Shown here: in pieces, positions 3,639 through 11,120 of the stretch
Position numbering within the stretch: position 1 is the first letter of the stretch
Layout: each line of letters starts with the position of its first letter
Source: a virus
Virus record (IMG/VR): IMGVR_UViG_3300025132_000083
Span: 1 to 43,867 of that record
Strand: one strand, 5' to 3'
DNA length: 43,867 bases
Notes under the pieces: model-generated
What the model saw: only the letters and a program-made list of their open reading frames with translations
What the model was told of the DNA's origin: nothing
Databases searched by the model: none
Translations under genes and position numbers: made by a program

Positions 3639-4853
3639 ATGGATGAAAAAATAAAAGCAGAAATCGGACAAGGTGCAAACCTTCTAGGTCTTAGCACAGA
3701 AGATGCTATGGCTAAGTATGAAGCAATTTGTGGAGAAACGGGAATAGAATTGTCAAGCCCTATTGGACTTGCACAGTGGAGAAGTTATGTTGCTAACGCA
3801 AGAAGGCAAAAGAATACTTCCTCTAACAGTGGAAACAATTCTCTTTCAAAGAAGGCCTTCGGGTTTTTCGTTTCTCTAGAATCACCTAGAGATACTATGG
3901 TATGGAATAGAAACAAAGCAAAAGAAGAATATGCTAGAAATGCAGATGCCGCTATTGAAGCAGGTTTCGTCGCTACAGCAGAACAAACCAATGATGGCTC
4001 TTGGAAAGTACTAAGAGTTCACAATGGGGAATATCAAGAAAGAGTTGTAAAGACTCTACCCGACGGGGCAGAAGAAGTAGATGGGAATATGATTATTCCA
4101 CTAGACTCTACACAAAACTATCCTAGTGGCGCAGTAAATCGAAACTATGGGAAGCCTCTTCCTGCTAACGAGTTTAGGAGAACCGGAGTATTCTATGGAA
4201 TGGTTGGCGATGATACTGAAATGAAACCTTACAACTTCTCTTACAAAAAGAAGGGCTGTATGGATTTTGCACCAAACTGTTTTGAGTTCCTACATATGTC
4301 TGTAATTAAGAATGAGAATGGTCAAGATATTTATGGCTATACTGAAGTCACACTAAACAGTTTAGTGATGAACAATAGTCTAGACCCCGAAAATGAAGAA
4401 TACCGAGATATGGGCAACTATAACTTTGTAGAAATCTTGACAGAAGTATTCTCTTCTAAGATTGCAGAATTAGTAGATATTGATAGACAGCACACCAATA
4501 ATGCCATGCTTCCTGTAAAGGAAAGATATGTGATTACAGATGGAACTGTTTGTAATATGAACATGACTCCTTACGGAAACGGAAATAGAGTCATCAATAT
4601 TACGGATTTGAATGCTGAGTTCGATTATGAAAACGGAAACAATATGACTACATGCTGGGTTCCCGAACATATCAATATTGACTTTGGCATCGGTAGCAAT
4701 GTAATTGTAATTGGGAGAACTTCTCAAAGACAAACAGATGAAGGACTACAGCCTGTTACTATTAACGTCTCCGGACTACTAGTAGTAGAGAGAGTAGGTT
4801 CTCCTGTAGAAATCGAAACGATTGAAGAAACCAACGACGATTGGTTTAGTTGA
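3639..4853 (+). CDS. Putative ssDNA-binding protein (RPA/OB-fold type)
   Basis: 404 aa. There is no diagnostic catalytic motif. A beta-rich region near residues 340-385 (VIVIGRTSQRQ, then VTINVSGLLVVERV) looks like an OB fold, and the protein ends in an acidic tail with terminal aromatics (ETNDDWFS), as in many ssDNA-binding proteins whose tail recruits partners. The N-terminal 60 residues form a separate helical domain followed by a Ser/Asn-rich linker. Its place between clamp loader and recombinase/PCNA, and the absence of any other RPA candidate in the replication block, support an RPA role. The assignment is inferred from features and context, not from a firm family match. Confidence 0.5.
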   Translation: MDEKIKAEIGQGANLLGLSTEDAMAKYEAICGETGIELSSPIGLAQWRSYVANARRQKNTSSNSGNNSLSKKAFGFFVSLESPRDTMVWNRNKAKEEYARNADAAIEAGFVATAEQTNDGSWKVLRVHNGEYQERVVKTLPDGAEEVDGNMIIPLDSTQNYPSGAVNRNYGKPLPANEFRRTGVFYGMVGDDTEMKPYNFSYKKKGCMDFAPNCFEFLHMSVIKNENGQDIYGYTEVTLNSLVMNNSLDPENEEYRDMGNYNFVEILTEVFSSKIAELVDIDRQHTNNAMLPVKERYVITDGTVCNMNMTPYGNGNRVINITDLNAEFDYENGNNMTTCWVPEHINIDFGIGSNVIVIGRTSQRQTDEGLQPVTINVSGLLVVERVGSPVEIETIEETNDDWFS

Positions 4854-4958
4854 TTCTCCTAAAGGGGTCGTTCCCGCACATCACAAGTGTAAACATAAAC
4901 TTGTGGAGAAAATAGATGTTCGATTGGGTGCAAAGCCCATCTCCTTAGAGGAATAACT
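4854..4958 (+). other. Intergenic 105 bp with several possible hairpins (structured leader?)
   Basis: This is an unusually long gap for a block where most genes overlap. It holds GGGGTCGTTCCC (small hairpin), a perfect CACAAGT...ACTTGTG inverted repeat with a 10-base loop (about 4881-4904), and TGGGTGCAAAGCCCA. CTAAAGG near its start can pair with CCTTAG near its end, which would give a closed multi-branch structure. It ends in a ribosome binding site (AGAGGA) for the next gene. A leader RNA, processing site or protein-binding site is possible; no known RNA family was recognised. Confidence 0.35.
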
Positions 4959-5195
4959 ATGTTAGTAAATAAAAAATATATATTGAAGGAAGGAAGTTAT
5001 CTTGCAGATATCGCAAGTTCTGACTTTGTTACAATGAGAAGAAGTGAGAAGGGTGTAATGTTGAAGTTGCACTTTGATACAAAAGAAATTAGATACGAAT
5101 GCGAAATTCAAGAAGCAGAAGAAATTTTAACAATATGGTCTGAGTCTAAAGACAATAAAATTGATTTTGATTTCATAGATTGGTTAGGTGAATAA
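4959..5195 (+). CDS. Hypothetical protein, 78 aa
   Basis: The ATG follows AGAGGAATAACT, a good ribosome binding site. The sequence predicts two beta strands, a beta hairpin and an acidic C-terminal helix ending in DFIDWLGE. No family is recognised. It is the first gene after the structured gap and is translationally close to the RecA-like ATPase at 5197, so it may be a partner or regulator of it. Confidence 0.65.
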   Translation: MLVNKKYILKEGSYLADIASSDFVTMRRSEKGVMLKLHFDTKEIRYECEIQEAEEILTIWSESKDNKIDFDFIDWLGE

Positions 5196-5196
5196 A

Positions 5197-6030
5197 ATGG
5201 GACTATTAAATAATAATATGGAAAGTGTAGAAAAAGATATAGAAGCGCAAAAGAAAAGCATCTTCGGTAAGAAGCAAGAGGAGTTCAATAATTCCTTTGC
5301 GGATTATATGAAAAAGAAAAGAGAAGCCAAGAGTTCTAGAATGGTTCTAGGTATTTGGGGAGAACCTAAATGTGGAAAGACTGGAATTGCTTTGGATTTT
5401 CCAGATAGAAATATCTGTGTTTTAGATTGGGATAAAGGAGTAGATTCTACATGGAGAGAATGGCATGATTCTTCGGAAAGAATTGATGTCTATTGTCCGA
5501 TTGTTATGAACAAAGACAATGTTGTAGATATTGACAAGAGCGATGATAACTCTCACGCTTTCGTTAGATATGTTAGACAAAAGATTGAGGAAGGAGATAA
5601 TCCTATCTTTGTATTCGATGGAGTAGATACTTGGTTTCAATCCTGTTTACTTAAAGTAAATCCAAATCCTAGAGTAGTTACTAAAGTAATGCCATATCAA
5701 TATGGTGCAAGAAACAATATATTCTATCATCTATTGGAAACTATTTACCAACTGAACTGTGATGTAATTTATATTACTCACGAAACAGAGAAGTATCTAG
5801 ATAACTCCCCTGTAGGAATGATGCCTAATTGGAAAGATTGGGGAGGAAAGTTAGAACAAGAAATCTATTGCACTAGAAAGAAAGTAAAGGGTCAAACTCA
5901 CTTTGTTGCAGAACTAGTAGGCAGTAGAACTAACGGAAACTTGGTAGGAAAGTCTTGGACTGTTAGAGAGGGTAATCCTCCTAACATCAAATGGAATGGA
6001 GTACCGGAATTACAGGAGGGTAAAATATGA
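5197..6030 (+). CDS. RecA/RadA-fold ATPase, Sak4-like (phage AAA_24 type)
   Basis: 277 aa. A 45-residue helical N-terminus precedes a single RecA-type core: Walker A GEPKCGKTG at residues 55-63, Walker B IFVFDGVD, and a later strand VIYITHE that resembles the family's sensor strand. Size and order match Sak4-type single-strand annealing/recombination ATPases of phages and short RadA-like paralogues of archaeal viruses. It probably acts with the ssDNA-binding protein in recombination-dependent replication. The ATG at 5197 has GGTGA upstream; an in-frame GTG at 5188 is less likely. It overlaps PCNA by ATGA. Confidence 0.8.
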   Translation: MGLLNNNMESVEKDIEAQKKSIFGKKQEEFNNSFADYMKKKREAKSSRMVLGIWGEPKCGKTGIALDFPDRNICVLDWDKGVDSTWREWHDSSERIDVYCPIVMNKDNVVDIDKSDDNSHAFVRYVRQKIEEGDNPIFVFDGVDTWFQSCLLKVNPNPRVVTKVMPYQYGARNNIFYHLLETIYQLNCDVIYITHETEKYLDNSPVGMMPNWKDWGGKLEQEIYCTRKKVKGQTHFVAELVGSRTNGNLVGKSWTVREGNPPNIKWNGVPELQEGKI

Positions 6031-6767
6031 AATTTGAAATTGATGCAAAGGTTCTCAGCAATGCACTTTCTGATATTCAAGGAAAGGGTAAGTATGGATT
6101 AGTGAATAGCAATCTAAATGATTTAGTATCTTGTTCTCTAGAAGAAGATGTATTAGAAATTTGGAATGCTAATACTACTCTTAGTTTAAACATCAATCTA
6201 CCAGTAACTAAGATTACTGATGGGGAAATTGTTTTCGATGCAAGAGAACTACTACCTTTCTTAAAGAAGTTTAATGGAACAATTACTGTAGAAGGTGGAG
6301 ATGTTCTAACTATCGCAGATGAAGAACAAAATGTTACTCTTCCTAGAATAGTTCTGCATCCCAATCAAAATGCAATCTCTAGGCTAAAGGGAATGTTAAA
6401 CCATATTCGACATGAAACTCCCGAAGAACTTTTTCTTTTCGGGAATGGAAAGTTCGAAGGGGCCTTTACCCTACATGCGGATTATTTTAAAGAAACAATA
6501 GATATGTGTGAACTTGTAAAGAGTGGAATCTACAGATTAGATTATACAGGACAAGAATTGACTATCGGTTCTCAAAATACTCCAACTAATAAATACTCTA
6601 GAGAGTTACCAATAGAGAATGCCATCGGAGAAGCGGCCACTGTAGAGTGGTCTTCTCCCTTGCATAGATTCTTCAAAGGGGAAGTAAACTTCTATGTAAA
6701 GGATGACTTCCCACTTCTTCTAATTTCAGAAGATAGGAAATTAATCTGTGCGCCACATACTAGGTGA
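6027..6767 (+). CDS. pcn: PCNA-like sliding clamp
   Basis: 246 aa, the usual length for archaeal and eukaryotic PCNA. The start MKFEIDAKVLSNALSDI and the end (FYVKDDFPLLLIS, then a strand leading to APHTR) match the PCNA fold; the FPLLL strand near the C-terminus is typical. Two repeated beta-alpha halves are visible, with a loop around residues 115-130 in the interdomain connector region. The trimeric ring tethers polymerase, ligase and nucleases. It lies between the Sak4-like ATPase and PolB, and at least two other products here carry PIP-like motifs. Confidence 0.88.
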   Translation: MKFEIDAKVLSNALSDIQGKGKYGLVNSNLNDLVSCSLEEDVLEIWNANTTLSLNINLPVTKITDGEIVFDARELLPFLKKFNGTITVEGGDVLTIADEEQNVTLPRIVLHPNQNAISRLKGMLNHIRHETPEELFLFGNGKFEGAFTLHADYFKETIDMCELVKSGIYRLDYTGQELTIGSQNTPTNKYSRELPIENAIGEAATVEWSSPLHRFFKGEVNFYVKDDFPLLLISEDRKLICAPHTR

Positions 6768-6771
6768 TGTA

Positions 6772-8484
6772 ATGATAATTGATGTGATGAACGACAATAA
6801 TATATTTTTATCTTGGAGAGAAAGAGGCAAAAAGAAAGTTGAGATTAAAACCTTTAGACCCTATTTTTTCATAGATGATTCGCATAAAGAAATCGCATCG
6901 TATAGGCCGTCTAAATACCTAAAGAAAGATTTCGAGTATGAAGAGGGTGATTGGTTTTCTTTAGAAGGAACAAAGTTGAAGAAAGTATATGTTGATAAAT
7001 ATACAGATATTAGAAGGGCAAAGGAAAGATTCTCTGAAACTTGGGAAGCAGATGTCCCTTACCATAGAAGATTTGCTGTAGATAATTTGGCCGAATTACC
7101 AGAATACAATATGCGTAAATGGTATTGGGATATGGAATGGCAACAAGGCGGAGAACATGATGGTTGTATTACCACTATTGTAGCGTATGATAATTATGAT
7201 GAGATGTATCACCAATGGGTTTGGTTTCCTAATAAATACAAACATGAAATTGAAAAGGTAAAACCGAAATATGTTTTTGGTTCTGAAAAAGAAATGCTTG
7301 AACATTTCATCAATACAATTACTACTAAAGACCCCGACATGTTAATTGCATGGTTTGGTCTAAAGTTCGATTTGCCTAAACTTCTAGAGAGATGCTGTGC
7401 ATTAGGAATCAATCCTCTTGTTATGTCACCTGTAAAAAGAATACAAGGAATCAACTCTACAAAGGACGGGTTTTCTTTTAGGAATAAAGATGGCTTTTCT
7501 CCTATCTCTCAACCGATTGGTGGAAGACTATGTTTGAATCTAGACCTAGCATTTGAGAGGCAGTGGAATGATTCTCAAAGAGGGACACTACCTTCTCTAA
7601 GTCTAAACTATATTTCTGAAACTATCTTGGGAAGAAACAAATTAGAGTCTGATAAGTTTCCCGACCCCAACGAATTCTATCGTAGGGCTTGGTTAGAGGA
7701 TACAGAAACATATCTGAAATATGCTATAATAGATGTAGAGTTAATGGTAGAGATAGATAATACTAACTTCTGTAGCGAAGCGATTATCGCCCTACAAAGA
7801 TTACTAGCAGCACCATTTGATTCTTGTTTCTATGCTAGTCACATGGCTAGTGTTTACTTTATGAGAAATGCTAACTGGAAAGCACCAACAGGATACAGGC
7901 CCAAGAATAAGAAATGTTCTAACTGTGGACATATCAATGATAAGTCTGCAAAGGAATGTTCTAAGTGTAAAGAATCTTTGACCTATCAAGGTGCTATGGT
8001 TTACAATCCTCTTAGTGAGAATACTAATGGCTTACATTTAGGTGTGGCCGCATTCGACTTTGCTGGACTATATCCTTCAATGATATTGGCTCGCAATATC
8101 TCCTTTGAGACTATTAGCGATACACCCACTCCTTTTGCTGCTAATCTAGCAACACCAAAGGATTTCAGTCATACAGACAAAGAGGACATGGTTTACTTCA
8201 AGACGGATAAGTTGGGATTGCTACCAACAGCAGTTCTAGAATTGAAAGAATTGAGGAATGAATATAAACGAAGAATGAAGGAAGCAAGGCTATCGGATGG
8301 CGGAGAATATCAGAAATGGAACAATAACCAAATGGCTGTTAAGAGATTAATGGCTTCATTCTATGGAGTATTGGCATTTGCTGGATTCAGTTGGTCGAAT
8401 GTAAAGTTAGCAGAAAGTATTACTGCAAGTGCAAGAGAAGCAATTAGATTAGCAGCATTCAAAGCAAAGGAGATGGAAGTATGA
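6772..8484 (+). CDS. polB: Family B DNA polymerase, N-terminal part (exonuclease, palm with motifs A and B)
   Basis: 570 aa. Exo I D120-M-E122, Exo II ending at D200, and Exo III Y317xxxD321 indicate an intact 3'-5' proofreading exonuclease. A CxxC-x10-CxxC zinc ribbon (C382, C385, C396, C399) lies just before motif A (D429FAGLYPS). Motif B is K524RLMASFYG, with Ala where Asn is usual. The reading frame stops right after KEMEV, before motif C, which is encoded 1.75 kb downstream at 10236. Start at ATG 6772 after AGGTGA; an in-frame GTG at 6748 overlaps PCNA. Alone it lacks the motif C aspartate and should not polymerise, so it must pair with the C-terminal part or be spliced to it. Confidence 0.93.
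   Translation: MIIDVMNDNNIFLSWRERGKKKVEIKTFRPYFFIDDSHKEIASYRPSKYLKKDFEYEEGDWFSLEGTKLKKVYVDKYTDIRRAKERFSETWEADVPYHRRFAVDNLAELPEYNMRKWYWDMEWQQGGEHDGCITTIVAYDNYDEMYHQWVWFPNKYKHEIEKVKPKYVFGSEKEMLEHFINTITTKDPDMLIAWFGLKFDLPKLLERCCALGINPLVMSPVKRIQGINSTKDGFSFRNKDGFSPISQPIGGRLCLNLDLAFERQWNDSQRGTLPSLSLNYISETILGRNKLESDKFPDPNEFYRRAWLEDTETYLKYAIIDVELMVEIDNTNFCSEAIIALQRLLAAPFDSCFYASHMASVYFMRNANWKAPTGYRPKNKKCSNCGHINDKSAKECSKCKESLTYQGAMVYNPLSENTNGLHLGVAAFDFAGLYPSMILARNISFETISDTPTPFAANLATPKDFSHTDKEDMVYFKTDKLGLLPTAVLELKELRNEYKRRMKEARLSDGGEYQKWNNNQMAVKRLMASFYGVLAFAGFSWSNVKLAESITASAREAIRLAAFKAKEMEV
8473..8481 (+). repeat. Left copy of 9-bp direct repeat ATGGAAGTA at the PolB break
   Basis: These nine bases encode the last three residues (Met-Glu-Val) of the N-terminal PolB gene and are followed directly by TGA. 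An identical copy in the same codon phase starts the C-terminal gene at 10236. Such a pair looks like a target-site duplication or recombination scar around an insertion. Confidence 0.85.
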
Positions 8485-8588
8485 AATGTAGACTTTGCCA
8501 ACGAAAGGTTGAAGCATTACACCCAATACAAAATTGTTGTAGTAGTTGCGTTAGGAAAATTAAATGGAGGAATAAACATGAAAGATAA
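8481..8588 (+). CDS. Small zinc-finger-like protein, 35 aa
   Basis: The ATG overlaps the PolB-N stop (ATGA). The peptide has C-x2-C (residues 3-6) and a Cys-Cys-x2-Cys cluster (residues 19-23), then a basic tail (RKIKWRNKHER). It looks like a minimal zinc-binding, possibly nucleic-acid-binding, peptide. It is the first gene of the cassette that interrupts PolB. Confidence 0.55.
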   Translation: MKCRLCQRKVEALHPIQNCCSSCVRKIKWRNKHER

Positions 8589-8820
8589 AATCAGTTCTTG
8601 GATAGATTATTTAGATGGCCTTAATTTTGTATCGAGTATCCTTGCGTCTGCTATTATTCTAGGGGTAATATTTTTCGTCTTTGTCTGTTTCTATTTCTCC
8701 TTCTTAGAAAAAGAAGCGGCTAGCAGAGGAATTATAGAAGGAACAGTAGTATTCATGGTATCGCTAATTGCTTTACCAATACTTACGATACTATCAGTAT
8801 TTTATGAGGTGGAAGAATGA
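8578..8820 (+). CDS. Small membrane protein with two transmembrane helices, 80 aa
   Basis: Start at ATG 8578 after TGGAGGAATAAAC; an upstream in-frame ATG at 8509 would add a segment that overlaps the zinc-finger gene and is unlikely. Two strongly hydrophobic segments lie at about residues 17-43 and 55-76, separated by a charged loop (EKEAASRG). The size and two-helix layout recall holins and other small viral membrane proteins, but no family is recognised. Confidence 0.6.
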   Translation: MKDKISSWIDYLDGLNFVSSILASAIILGVIFFVFVCFYFSFLEKEAASRGIIEGTVVFMVSLIALPILTILSVFYEVEE

Positions 8821-9011
8821 CATTAGAAACACATGTAGATGTAATACTTTGGCACGAAGATATGGAAACATTAGAAATAACTATGCGAGAGGTTAGAGAG
8901 ATTATTGAATATATGACTAACCGAAAGCGTAGATTCAAAGTTAGTGTTGGAAGAACTGCTGGAACAGATGAGAAAGGTAACAAAGTAATGGGATATCCGG
9001 AGAGAGAATAA
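8817..9011 (+). CDS. Hypothetical protein, 64 aa
   Basis: ATGA overlap with the upstream gene and a GAGGTGG site before the start. It has an acidic first half, a helix (EVREIIEYM), then a basic strand-rich end with NRKRRFKVSVGRTAG. No family is recognised. It lies in the PolB-interrupting cassette. Confidence 0.5.
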   Translation: MTLETHVDVILWHEDMETLEITMREVREIIEYMTNRKRRFKVSVGRTAGTDEKGNKVMGYPERE

Positions 9012-9229
9012 TGAATATGTATTTTAAAAAATGGATAGTAGAAGCGATTGATTCTATAGAAGGAGAATTTAATGCAAAACAGGTTCTAGAAAAAATAGTA
9101 GAAAAACATGGGACTAGCCCATATGTAGGAAGTGTAACTGCAATAGGTTGGTATATGAATAAACTCGATTATGTTGAACACATTTGCAAAGGGCACTCGT
9201 CTAAGACATATAAGAAAAAGGAGTGCTAG
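9011..9229 (+). CDS. Small winged-helix-like protein, 72 aa
   Basis: TAATG overlap with the preceding gene. The helix pattern (FNAKQVLEKIVEKHG, a SVTAIGWYMNKL recognition-like helix, then a short basic wing KTYKKK) resembles a winged helix-turn-helix DNA-binding domain. It may be a transcription regulator. This is the first of three such candidates in the cassette. Confidence 0.5.
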   Translation: MNMYFKKWIVEAIDSIEGEFNAKQVLEKIVEKHGTSPYVGSVTAIGWYMNKLDYVEHICKGHSSKTYKKKEC

Positions 9230-9231
9230 TT

Positions 9232-9363
9232 ATGATGATGGATAAGACAAATGAATTATTAGAAGAATTGCTGGCTATGATAGCAAAATCAAATAAGATA
9301 TTAATGATGGTAAATATCGTAAACATAGCAACCATCATAACAATAGTAACGGTGATAGTATGA
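9232..9363 (+). CDS. Single-pass membrane micropeptide, 43 aa
   Basis: Starts at ATGATGATG (9232) with AGGAG about 10 bases upstream. An acidic amphipathic start (TNELLEELLAM) is followed by a hydrophobic stretch of about 18 residues rich in Ile and Val up to the C-terminus. It is probably an inner-membrane-anchored peptide. No family is recognised. Confidence 0.45.
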   Translation: MMMDKTNELLEELLAMIAKSNKILMMVNIVNIATIITIVTVIV

Positions 9364-9539
9364 ATATAGAAGAATTAAAAGAGGAGATAGTATCTCTAAA
9401 AAATAGAATCAAGGGCTTGGAAAACGATTTAGATTTGCAGATTGAAAAGAACCATAGCATTACAAAAATGTATAATGCCATTAGGGAAATTCAAGATGAA
9501 CTTGTCAAGAAAGGATATTGGTTTAATAGTCAGTTGTGA
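9360..9539 (+). CDS. Coiled-coil micropeptide, 59 aa
   Basis: ATGA overlap with the upstream peptide. Heptad-like repeats with Leu/Ile at a and d positions run from residue 3 to about 50 (EELKEEIVSLKNRIKGLEND), so a dimeric coiled coil is likely. No family is recognised. Confidence 0.5.
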   Translation: MNIEELKEEIVSLKNRIKGLENDLDLQIEKNHSITKMYNAIREIQDELVKKGYWFNSQL

Positions 9540-9543
9540 TATA

Positions 9544-9828
9544 ATGGAAAATAGACTTTATTTTAATAAGAATAAAATATGCAGGAGAATATTTCGAGTC
9601 TTTAAAGAAAGCAACGAAGAGGCATTAACTACTCAAGAAATAATCAATGCGCTTTTTGAGCAAACGACTACTAGCGGAAAGCCTTTCATAAATCGTTTTA
9701 CTAAGCAGACAATAACTCAAACACTTAACAAGTATCCCTTTTTCCTAAAGGCAGGAACTAGAACAGTAAAAAGTATTTCTGGAAATAATATGAATGTGAA
9801 TTGTTGGAAAGTGAAAGAGGGGGTATAA
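9544..9828 (+). CDS. Winged-helix-like DNA-binding protein, 94 aa
   Basis: Start taken at ATG 9544, just after the preceding stop; an in-frame ATG at 9442 would overlap the coiled-coil gene extensively. The pattern RRIFRVFKES, LTTQEIINALFEQ, FTKQTITQTLNKYPFFLKAG, then a wing strand, is that of a winged helix. A transcription regulator or replication initiator-like DNA binder is plausible. Confidence 0.55.
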   Translation: MENRLYFNKNKICRRIFRVFKESNEEALTTQEIINALFEQTTTSGKPFINRFTKQTITQTLNKYPFFLKAGTRTVKSISGNNMNVNCWKVKEGV

Positions 9829-9830
9829 AG

Positions 9831-10166
9831 ATGGGTAGAGGTAACTCCAAAAGTTTAGATTGGGAATTTCTAGATATGAGTTTGGATATGGTTTTGTCAG
9901 AACTAACAGTGGATGAAATATGGGTAGAGGATTTATCTGCTCTTGTTATAGATAGATATGTCAAGTTGAGTAACCATAAAGTTATTCGAAAAAACTACTA
10001 TCCTAGAAATAGATTTCAGAATGCTCTTTCTCGTTCTAGACTATTGTTAAGAGGGTGGGACTGTAAAAGGAGGGTGAGGACATCATTTCTTAAAATAGAA
10101 GGAGAGAAAAGAATGGTTAGAAAATCACAGAGTAAAGCCTTTAGGGTTGGTGAAACCAATGACTGA
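9831..10166 (+). CDS. Basic winged-helix-like protein, 111 aa
   Basis: Start at ATG 9831 after AGAGGGGG; an in-frame ATG at 9801 overlaps the upstream gene. The first half is acidic and helical (LDMVLSELTVDEIWVEDLSALV), then a helix (RNRFQNALSRSRLLLRG) and a long basic tail rich in Arg and Lys. This fits a DNA-binding winged helix with a basic extension. No exact family is recognised. Confidence 0.5.
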   Translation: MGRGNSKSLDWEFLDMSLDMVLSELTVDEIWVEDLSALVIDRYVKLSNHKVIRKNYYPRNRFQNALSRSRLLLRGWDCKRRVRTSFLKIEGEKRMVRKSQSKAFRVGETND

Positions 10167-10245
10167 ATTATTAATGGCATTGATGGTAATTGCTATTTTA
10201 TATTGGATAGGGAATATAGTTTTGGAGGAGAAAGAATGGAAGTAG
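10159..10245 (+). CDS. Single-pass membrane micropeptide, 28 aa
   Basis: ATGA-type overlap with the upstream gene. About 20 hydrophobic residues (LLMALMVIAILYWIGNIVL) are followed by a short charged tail (EEKEWK). Its last codons overlap the start of PolB-C in another frame, and its body contains the GGAGGAG ribosome binding site used by PolB-C. It may exist mainly to couple translation. Confidence 0.4.
   Translation: MTELLMALMVIAILYWIGNIVLEEKEWK
10236..10244 (+). repeat. Right copy of 9-bp direct repeat ATGGAAGTA at the PolB break
   Basis: Identical to 8473-8481. Here the repeat provides the ATG start codon of the C-terminal PolB gene and encodes its first three residues (Met-Glu-Val). The two copies are 1763 bp apart, which is not a multiple of three. 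Confidence 0.85.
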
Positions 10246-11120
10246 TTTACGGGCATACTGATTCAATCTATGTCAAAATAGATTCTCTTAACAAGGCCAA
10301 AGAAGTTGTCGTTGAAATCAATGACCATGTAAGAGAATCGTTTCCTAATCTTCTAAATCTACCTGAACACCCTGTAGTTTTAGAATTCGAGAAATATTTT
10401 TCTTCATTAGGAGTAGGTTCTACCAAAAATAGAAACGCAGGCTTAATTTCATGGAAAGACGGCTATGAGTTAAAGGAACCGGAATTTGTTATGACTGGAT
10501 TTACTGCAAAGAGGATTTCTGAAACCCCTTTGGCAAAAGGTGTGCAAATGACTGTCTTGAAAAAGTGGTTAGATGGAGAATCAAGAAAACAAATCAATTC
10601 GTGGCTACATTCGAAATATAATTCAATAATAAATGGCGATTTTTCGCTTTTGGATATAATTAAGAGAAGCCGACTCAAAGAAAATAGATTTTCTCTAAAA
10701 TGTTACTCTTGTAATAGAAAATACAGTGTAGAGGATTGCTATTCTATAGAATATTGCACTAAATGTGGTAAGTCAAAAGAAAAATTTGTCACAGTCGATG
10801 GCAAAAGGCCTATTTTTGGCGAAGGTATAGCAGGAATCCTCTATGGGAGAGAAAAATTAAACATGGAATACGATGATTCGTATTTATTTATGAAGGTGAA
10901 GTCTACTGATACCTATACTCATCCCTTAACGGATGAACAAAAACAAGTAGAGTATTATTCGGCAACGACTTATGATGATTTCAAAGACGTTAAGCCGAAT
11001 TTAGAGTATTATGCTAAGGTGGTAATGAAAAAAGCCGAACCCGTTTACAAAGCAATGGGTTGGGAGTTAGATTCTATTAGAACAGGCAGTACTCAAAGCA
11101 CTTTTGAAGATTGGTGGTGA
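10236..11120 (+). CDS. polB: Family B DNA polymerase, C-terminal part (motif C, thumb, PIP box)
   Basis: 294 aa. Motif C appears right at the N-terminus (YGHTDS, catalytic Asp9; the first Asp of the usual DTD is His). TKNRNAG near residue 63 corresponds to the KKRY-type DNA-contact motif. A zinc ribbon (C156, C159, C174, C177) sits in the thumb region, and the protein ends in QSTFEDWW, a PIP-like PCNA-binding motif. GGAGGAG lies 6-12 bases upstream of ATG 10236, supporting separate translation; an in-frame upstream codon at 10203 is less likely. It completes the polymerase that stops at 8484. Split PolB enzymes that reassemble are known in archaea. Confidence 0.92.
   Translation: MEVVYGHTDSIYVKIDSLNKAKEVVVEINDHVRESFPNLLNLPEHPVVLEFEKYFSSLGVGSTKNRNAGLISWKDGYELKEPEFVMTGFTAKRISETPLAKGVQMTVLKKWLDGESRKQINSWLHSKYNSIINGDFSLLDIIKRSRLKENRFSLKCYSCNRKYSVEDCYSIEYCTKCGKSKEKFVTVDGKRPIFGEGIAGILYGREKLNMEYDDSYLFMKVKSTDTYTHPLTDEQKQVEYYSATTYDDFKDVKPNLEYYAKVVMKKAEPVYKAMGWELDSIRTGSTQSTFEDWW

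Follow-up and report, generated by a model that had tools for sequence, protein, structure and literature searches.

Why would a virus carry its replicative DNA polymerase gene in two pieces, with nine further genes packed between them? Could the arrival of those genes have been what broke the polymerase gene? These questions are raised by a single viral record, IMGVR_UViG_3300025132_000083, whose 43,867 bp were analyzed as a whole and are referred to here as the window. In it, a gene for a family B DNA polymerase (PolB) is interrupted directly before motif C. The probable answer, in our view, is that the split is ancient, that its product is a two-chain polymerase, and that a translationally coupled junction behind the first half has been invaded recurrently, in part by endonuclease genes.

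Two open reading frames (ORFs), PolB-N and PolB-C (Table 1), jointly cover one PolB with every catalytic motif and without overlap of domains: positions 39–210 of the Pfam DNA_pol_B profile are covered by PolB-N and positions 220–379 by PolB-C. In profile comparisons PolB-N matches solved family B polymerases over the N-terminal ~520 residues and ends just past motif B, and PolB-C matches solved PolBs starting just ahead of motif C. The C-terminus of PolB-N, just upstream of motif C, reads KAKEMEV, followed by the stop codon; PolB-C begins at the ATG at 10236 with MEVVYGHTDS. The original prediction, made from the letters of the window, had placed the break before motif C, between a KEMEV end and a MEVVYGHTDS start, and had let the right copy of a 9-bp direct repeat supply the ATG of PolB-C, with a GGAGGAG of its own upstream; each of these points agrees with our reading of the window. 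PolB-N is present and conserved throughout the split loci described below, motif C (YGHTDS) is invariant in PolB-C, and the catalytic motifs are all kept. Splitting often precedes gene loss, and one or both halves might be decaying while another polymerase replicates the virus. Such decay is very improbable given strong purifying selection on both halves (nonsynonymous differences, pN, of 0.04–0.11 vs synonymous differences, pS, of 0.28–0.68), the invariance of the catalytic residues and the retention of both halves in all split loci.

Do the two chains meet again as proteins? AlphaFold predicts the thumb of PolB-C, modeled alone, with confidence, and its palm part (residues 49–94) with a predicted local distance difference test score (pLDDT) below 50; in PolB-N, the last 39 residues (540–578) also score below 50. 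Poor prediction at both broken ends fits halves that complete each other, and is no more than suggestive. PolB-C has weak Foldseek matches to PolBs. The two chains most likely reassemble into one polymerase. Both halves also contain zinc-ribbon-looking motifs of the CxxC..CxxC type, at residues ~156–177 of PolB-C (in the thumb, conserved) and ~390–411 of PolB-N.

How often did the gene break? IMG/VR was scanned with each PolB half and with an alignment of the C half, and the uninterrupted PolB of locus L034 served as a further query (loci are denoted by L numbers). All 165 loci with a readable break are split at the same codon, and the gap between the two genes ranges from −4 to 2819 bp, with all three reading frames represented. 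The scan with the L034 PolB yielded ~58 loci with an uninterrupted PolB, as the original prediction had proposed to look for; among them L034 is an outgroup with a window-like gene order (ATPase-PCNA-PolB-PD(D/E)XK nuclease-primase-ERCC4). In a tree of 119 non-redundant PolBs, comprising 77 split and 42 uninterrupted lineages, a single change accounts for the distribution of split and uninterrupted genes (support 100). This tree shows one ancient origin of the split, as far as PolB sequences record it, and fixation in 77 lineages. No reversion to a joined PolB was seen among the 77, though the short repeat would permit precise excision in some of them. The split recurs in 165 IMG/VR loci and also in an independent contig from a GenBank metagenome-assembled genome (MAG), which excludes the assembly artefact that the original prediction had kept in view. 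The contrary picture that it had named, one split and one repeat everywhere with no variation in the cassette, holds in its first element (the split is the same in 165 of 165 loci) but not in the others, as the repeat decays and the cassette varies.

The independent contig, NZMJ01000151.1, belongs to a Maricaulis MAG and carries a split PolB of the same kind (L253). It was the sole match in a scan of GTDB for host genome context, and is probably a misbinned archaeal-virus contig. Separate histories of the N and C halves were also considered and rejected, as a sliding comparison revealed mosaic recombination across the region, without a special breakpoint. Between positions 5188 and 13500, nucleotide identity of the window to L003 jumps between ~73% and 99% over short stretches, a pattern that indicates mosaic recombination among these viruses.

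Is the 9-bp repeat a scar of the cassette? ATGGAAGTA occurs exactly twice in the window and not on the other strand; the copies lie 1763 bp apart, each in phase with the codons of its own gene, just as had been predicted. That it stands on both sides of the cassette, and only there, would suit a single-event entry of a nine-gene cassette into this polB, with a 9-bp target-site duplication as its mark. The nearest uninterrupted relatives read M-x-V/I-Y-G-H-T-D-S here, with a single M-x-V/I, which also suits this scenario, and the original ancestral event may indeed have duplicated the M-x-V codons. For the lineage of the window, however, entry in one event is already contradicted by the ancestral split. 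Moreover, the repeat is reduced to 6/9 in L003, the nearest relative and a 92%-identical sister, and to 7/9 in L004; the copies are no more alike within loci (7.00/9) than between loci (7.12/9; permutation p = 0.99); and genes have come and gone since, the first cassette gene being missing at this junction in L004. We regard entry in one event as improbable. A recent target-site duplication by the whole cassette is ruled out by the within/between-locus comparison together with L003, and a transposon with target-site duplication was rejected on the same ground, the flanking repeat not being locus-specific. Because PolB-N retains its codons to about M-E-V and PolB-C opens with its own M-E/K-V, both copies encode homologous residues; because they fall on homologous codons, the 9-bp match is non-random. 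By these comparisons the repeat is not the scar of the present cassette but reflects the shared M-E/K-V codons; it could be a vestige of the ancestral event. Two parts of the original prediction thus fall: the repeat does not behave like a target-site duplication of the cassette, and a splitting of this gene by the present cassette is not supported, since the split is ancestral and the content has changed many times since.

Could the gap be removed after transcription or translation? An in-frame intein had been rejected in the original prediction, correctly so: the spacing of 1763 bp is 2 mod 3, and gap lengths fall in all frames. An intron, self-splicing or of the bulge-helix-bulge type, would let PolB be made as a single chain, and with a single MEV counted the two protein parts do fit together seamlessly. 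Against this, the gap is packed with coupled ORFs, its length and unrelated contents vary as described, and PolB-C has its own Shine-Dalgarno-like motif in 61 of the 77 split lineages (vs 981 of 4760 random ATGs). Rfam, at two thresholds, revealed no catalytic intron RNA, with no match at gathering level and none near it in the gap; bulge-helix-bulge structures were not modeled. The intron, rated the less likely reading from the start, is exceedingly improbable.

What, then, keeps changing the content of the break? The answer appears to lie at the end of PolB-N. In 49 of the 77 non-redundant split lineages PolB-N ends in ATGA, and in all 49 a Shine-Dalgarno-like motif lies at the right distance, formed in the clades of the window by the K-E codons AAGGAG; for comparison, 208 of 850 long ORFs end in ATGA. 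Among 62 close pairs that differ in gap size, not all of which are independent events as some share an insert, 30 show a clean indel starting at the PolB-N end. In about half of these 30, the right flank opens with 12–30 bp that resemble the PolB-N end. The clearest case is a 600-bp insert in L105 relative to L094, with a left flank identical at 124 of 124 positions and a right flank at 173 of 174. It encodes a protein matching Pfam MUG113/T5orf172, families that we take to belong to the GIY-YIG group. The insert gene ends in AAAGCAAAGGAGATGAAAGAATGA, which equals the PolB-N end of L094, as does the right end of the insert, AAAGCAAAGGAGATGAAAGAATGAGTAGAA; the exact flanking repeat measures 15 bp. 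Another virus, L049, carries a relative of this gene, and in both comparisons (L105/L094 and L049/L051), that is, in relatives and not in the window, an endonuclease gene is polymorphic at a fixed site between otherwise matching flanks. HNH genes are inserted in L061 and L089, the latter ending in AAGGAGATGAAAATATGA. The same copied tail is found on unrelated genes, namely those for a 563-aa protein (L093), membrane proteins (L007, L055) and small proteins (L017, L044, L070, L090). Overall, 32 of the 479 ORFs in the gaps have it, vs 15 of 1723 ORFs elsewhere (p = 7e-12). Insertion scars of the kind originally proposed do occur in relatives, at the inner junction of PolB-N with the first cassette gene, which is the main point of entry for new genes.

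In L016, a DNA N6/N4 methyltransferase gene (positions 4671–5444 of that locus) lies within the PolB gap; its terminal GGCGTGGAGGTGAAGGCGTGA duplicates the terminus of the gene before it, GGCGTGGAGGTGAAGGTGTGA.

Several observations weigh against a junction invaded by mobile genes. The HNH gene of L061 has no copied tail, and many of the inserted genes are not endonucleases. Among ORF ends coupled by a Shine-Dalgarno motif and ATGA, enrichment of the copied tail drops to odds of 2.9 (p = 0.002), so that part of it reflects shared constraint. In most close pairs the direction, insertion or loss, is inferred. The PolB tree was quickly made, and some of its branches are long. Finally, L142 and L144 are split and have no cassette, which means that different causes may lie behind the split and the cassette. 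These two loci have exactly the form expected if nothing more than a frameshift or a stop near an internal Met and Shine-Dalgarno-like codons first divided polB, leaving two ATGA-coupled ORFs that captured genes only later: the TGA stop of PolB-N overlaps the ATG of PolB-C. The unrelated gap genes of two sub-clades also accord with this origin. Yet L142 is nested among lineages with gaps of 0.2–1.4 kb, which makes loss of a cassette there at least as likely, and the tree does not resolve the deepest branching within the split clade. We hold a frameshift origin to be rather unlikely, though far from negligible.

For the ancient split with a recurrently invaded junction, we propose the following course. 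polB was broken once, directly upstream of motif C, in the ancestor of a magrovirus-type clade, and has stayed broken; the first break may have come about either by insertion of an endonuclease gene, in the same way as later inserts, or by a frameshift of the type present in L142 and L144, which have no gap. PolB-N and PolB-C would be translated separately, and the palm of PolB-N would receive motif C and the thumb from PolB-C. Whichever gene follows PolB-N would use the terminal PolB-N codons (AAGGAG..ATGA) both as its ribosome-binding site and for a stop/start overlap. Genes are repeatedly inserted and lost at this junction, and as many inserts bear at their 3' end a copy of the last 12–30 bp of PolB-N, the next gene would retain a coupled start. 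GIY-YIG-like or HNH insert genes could drive insertion by cutting the PolB-N junction, as predicted by analogy with mobile ORFs of fungal mitochondria and free-standing endonucleases of T4-like phages. More tentatively, and with the odds somewhat against it, the 3' end of PolB-N may be a dedicated gene-capture site, incoming genes (endonucleases and others) bringing along a portable copy of its last codons that is at once target, recombination tract and ribosome-binding site; cargo could then be swapped within an essential replication gene while PolB and the next gene are expressed undisturbed, and it would be the split that makes capture possible.

Table 1. Features of the split polB locus, in window positions
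Feature	Position	Strand	Description
PolB-N	6748..8484	+	Exonuclease domain, motifs A and B, palm/fingers; Pfam DNA_pol_B_exo1 and DNA_pol_B
Junction AAGGAGATGGAAGTATGA	8467..8484	+	Last PolB-N codons: Shine-Dalgarno (GGAG) and ATGA stop/start overlap for the first cassette gene; insertion hotspot
Left copy of ATGGAAGTA	8473..8481	+	Codons M-E-V of PolB-N
Cassette gene 1	8481..8588	+	35-aa CxxC protein; missing at this junction in L004 (97 bp)
Cassette gene 2	8578..8820	+	80-aa membrane protein; nearest relatives only
Cassette gene 3	8817..9011	+	64-aa family (VKVxYDTEETWxxTLxEVxEIF); 43/48 lineages of three clades; restricted to the gap
Cassette gene 4	9011..9229	+	72 aa, winged-helix-like on inspection; confined to the gap, with 34 occurrences in gaps of the non-redundant set
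Cassette gene 5	9232..9363	+	43-aa membrane microprotein (..SNKILMMVNIVNIATIITI..)
Cassette gene 6	9360..9539	+	59-aa coiled-coil-like protein
Cassette gene 7	9544..9828	+	94-aa protein, found in the window's own clade
Cassette gene 8	9831..10166	+	111-aa protein (MGRGNSKSLDWEF..)
Cassette gene 9	10159..10245	+	28-aa membrane peptide; stop overlaps PolB-C start
Right copy of ATGGAAGTA	10236..10244	+	Start codon and codons E-V of PolB-C
PolB-C	10236..11120	+	Motif C (YGHTDS), remaining palm, thumb with conserved CxxC..C motif; Pfam DNA_pol_B

What does the gap encode? The break of the window does hold the predicted cassette, nine ORFs on one strand (Table 1), and across relatives the cassette is multigene and variable in content. 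In 74 split loci the gaps are dense in ORFs on the + strand, which cover 90% of bases vs 43% on the − strand. None of the nine genes has a Pfam match above the curated cut-off or a convincing PHROGs match. Three clades carry the 43-aa membrane microprotein in all of their lineages (48 of 48), and the 29 lineages of the sister sub-clade all lack it; nowhere in the loci does it occur except between the two PolB genes. Its sequence is strongly conserved (pS 0.61, pN 0.13, pN/pS 0.21) and third codon positions vary most, which indicates a real coding gene under purifying selection. A frequent gene order in the gap is winged-helix-like protein, 64-aa protein, 43-aa microprotein and coiled coil. Other gap genes are mostly replaced between near relatives, and two sub-clades hold unrelated gap genes; cassette gene 1, which L004 lacks at this junction, was recently either inserted or lost. 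Where the microprotein is absent, in the sister sub-clade, the gaps of ~22 loci (L173, L145, L169 and L150 among them) hold a small membrane protein family peculiar to that sub-clade (..YGxxSxLQDVNxI).

To what kind of virus does the locus belong? The + strand of the window carries a replication cluster and the − strand the structural genes, with a skew switch near 17 kb. Pfam identifies a DNA ligase, an RFC-like ATPase, the two PolB halves, a PD-(D/E)XK nuclease and an ERCC4 nuclease, as well as an SU10-like major capsid protein and a prohead protease. PolB, PCNA, RFC and ligase are thus clustered opposite the structural genes, PCNA and primase being assigned by position and inspection alone. 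This plan matches that of Magrovirales (PMC10768690), and by its gene plan the virus is a tailed archaeal virus of the magrovirus type, within a group that is marine and uncultured. The start of the window truncates the ATP-dependent DNA ligase gene (1–607), which makes the record a genome fragment.

Split polymerases are known from several systems. In the profile of the International Committee on Taxonomy of Viruses (ICTV; PMC10768690), PolB of virus YSH_150918 is annotated as two genes, PolB-NTD and PolB-CTD; these Magrovirales (Aoguangviridae) resemble the window in this respect and in having the replisome genes grouped opposite the structural ones. For the two genes the profile gives no more than labels, without split position, single origin, gap content or junction scars, and YSH_150918 is likened to the window by description only. 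Aeromonas phages 25 and 44RR likewise have a split gene for a family B replicative polymerase (gene 43), whose break may or may not contain an endonuclease gene (in phage 25 it does), and gp43A and gp43B of phage 25 co-purify and polymerize (PMC2988022). These phages differ from the window in being bacterial and T4-like, with one endonuclease gene or an untranslated spacer in the break instead of a changing multigene cassette. The contrast with other split PolBs drawn in the original prediction is accordingly weaker than claimed, as a gene 43 break can hold an endonuclease gene; the changing multigene cassette remains a difference. PolB of Methanothermobacter thermautotrophicus is split as well (Kelman 1999, as cited in PMC3984812). 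It too is an archaeal family B polymerase of two polypeptides without intein splicing, but it is a cellular enzyme, likened here by its two-chain form.

The inserts of the relatives have parallels of their own. In fungal mitochondria, LAGLIDADG and GIY-YIG endonuclease ORFs lie at the 3' end of genes whose C-terminal end is duplicated (PMC3630166), an endonuclease gene behind a duplicated gene end as in the relatives. Those elements reside in eukaryotic organelles and supply a foreign C-terminus, whereas here the copied piece measures 12–30 bp and doubles as the ribosome-binding site of the next gene. The mob and seg genes of T4 are promoterless HNH and GIY-YIG genes placed between or inside replication genes with stop/start overlap, a similar arrangement; in the sections of PMC2988022 that were available, no copied gene end is described. 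The split itself is already annotated, as noted for the ICTV profile; its combination with mobile-ORF-like insertion at one site appears to be new. The literature searched, which did not include the original magrovirus paper, gave no account of the hotspot, the cassette, the copied ends or the microprotein.

These viruses offer a naturally split replicative polymerase, long kept in many lineages and matched by relatives that share the gene order but have an uninterrupted gene, which makes the cost or benefit of two chains testable. The 43-aa membrane protein, with its occurrence in three clades, is an easily testable viral microprotein. Mobile genes that repeatedly enter one codon-level site, with expression preserved through a copied host-gene end, would help to explain the turnover of small genes in large tailed viruses.

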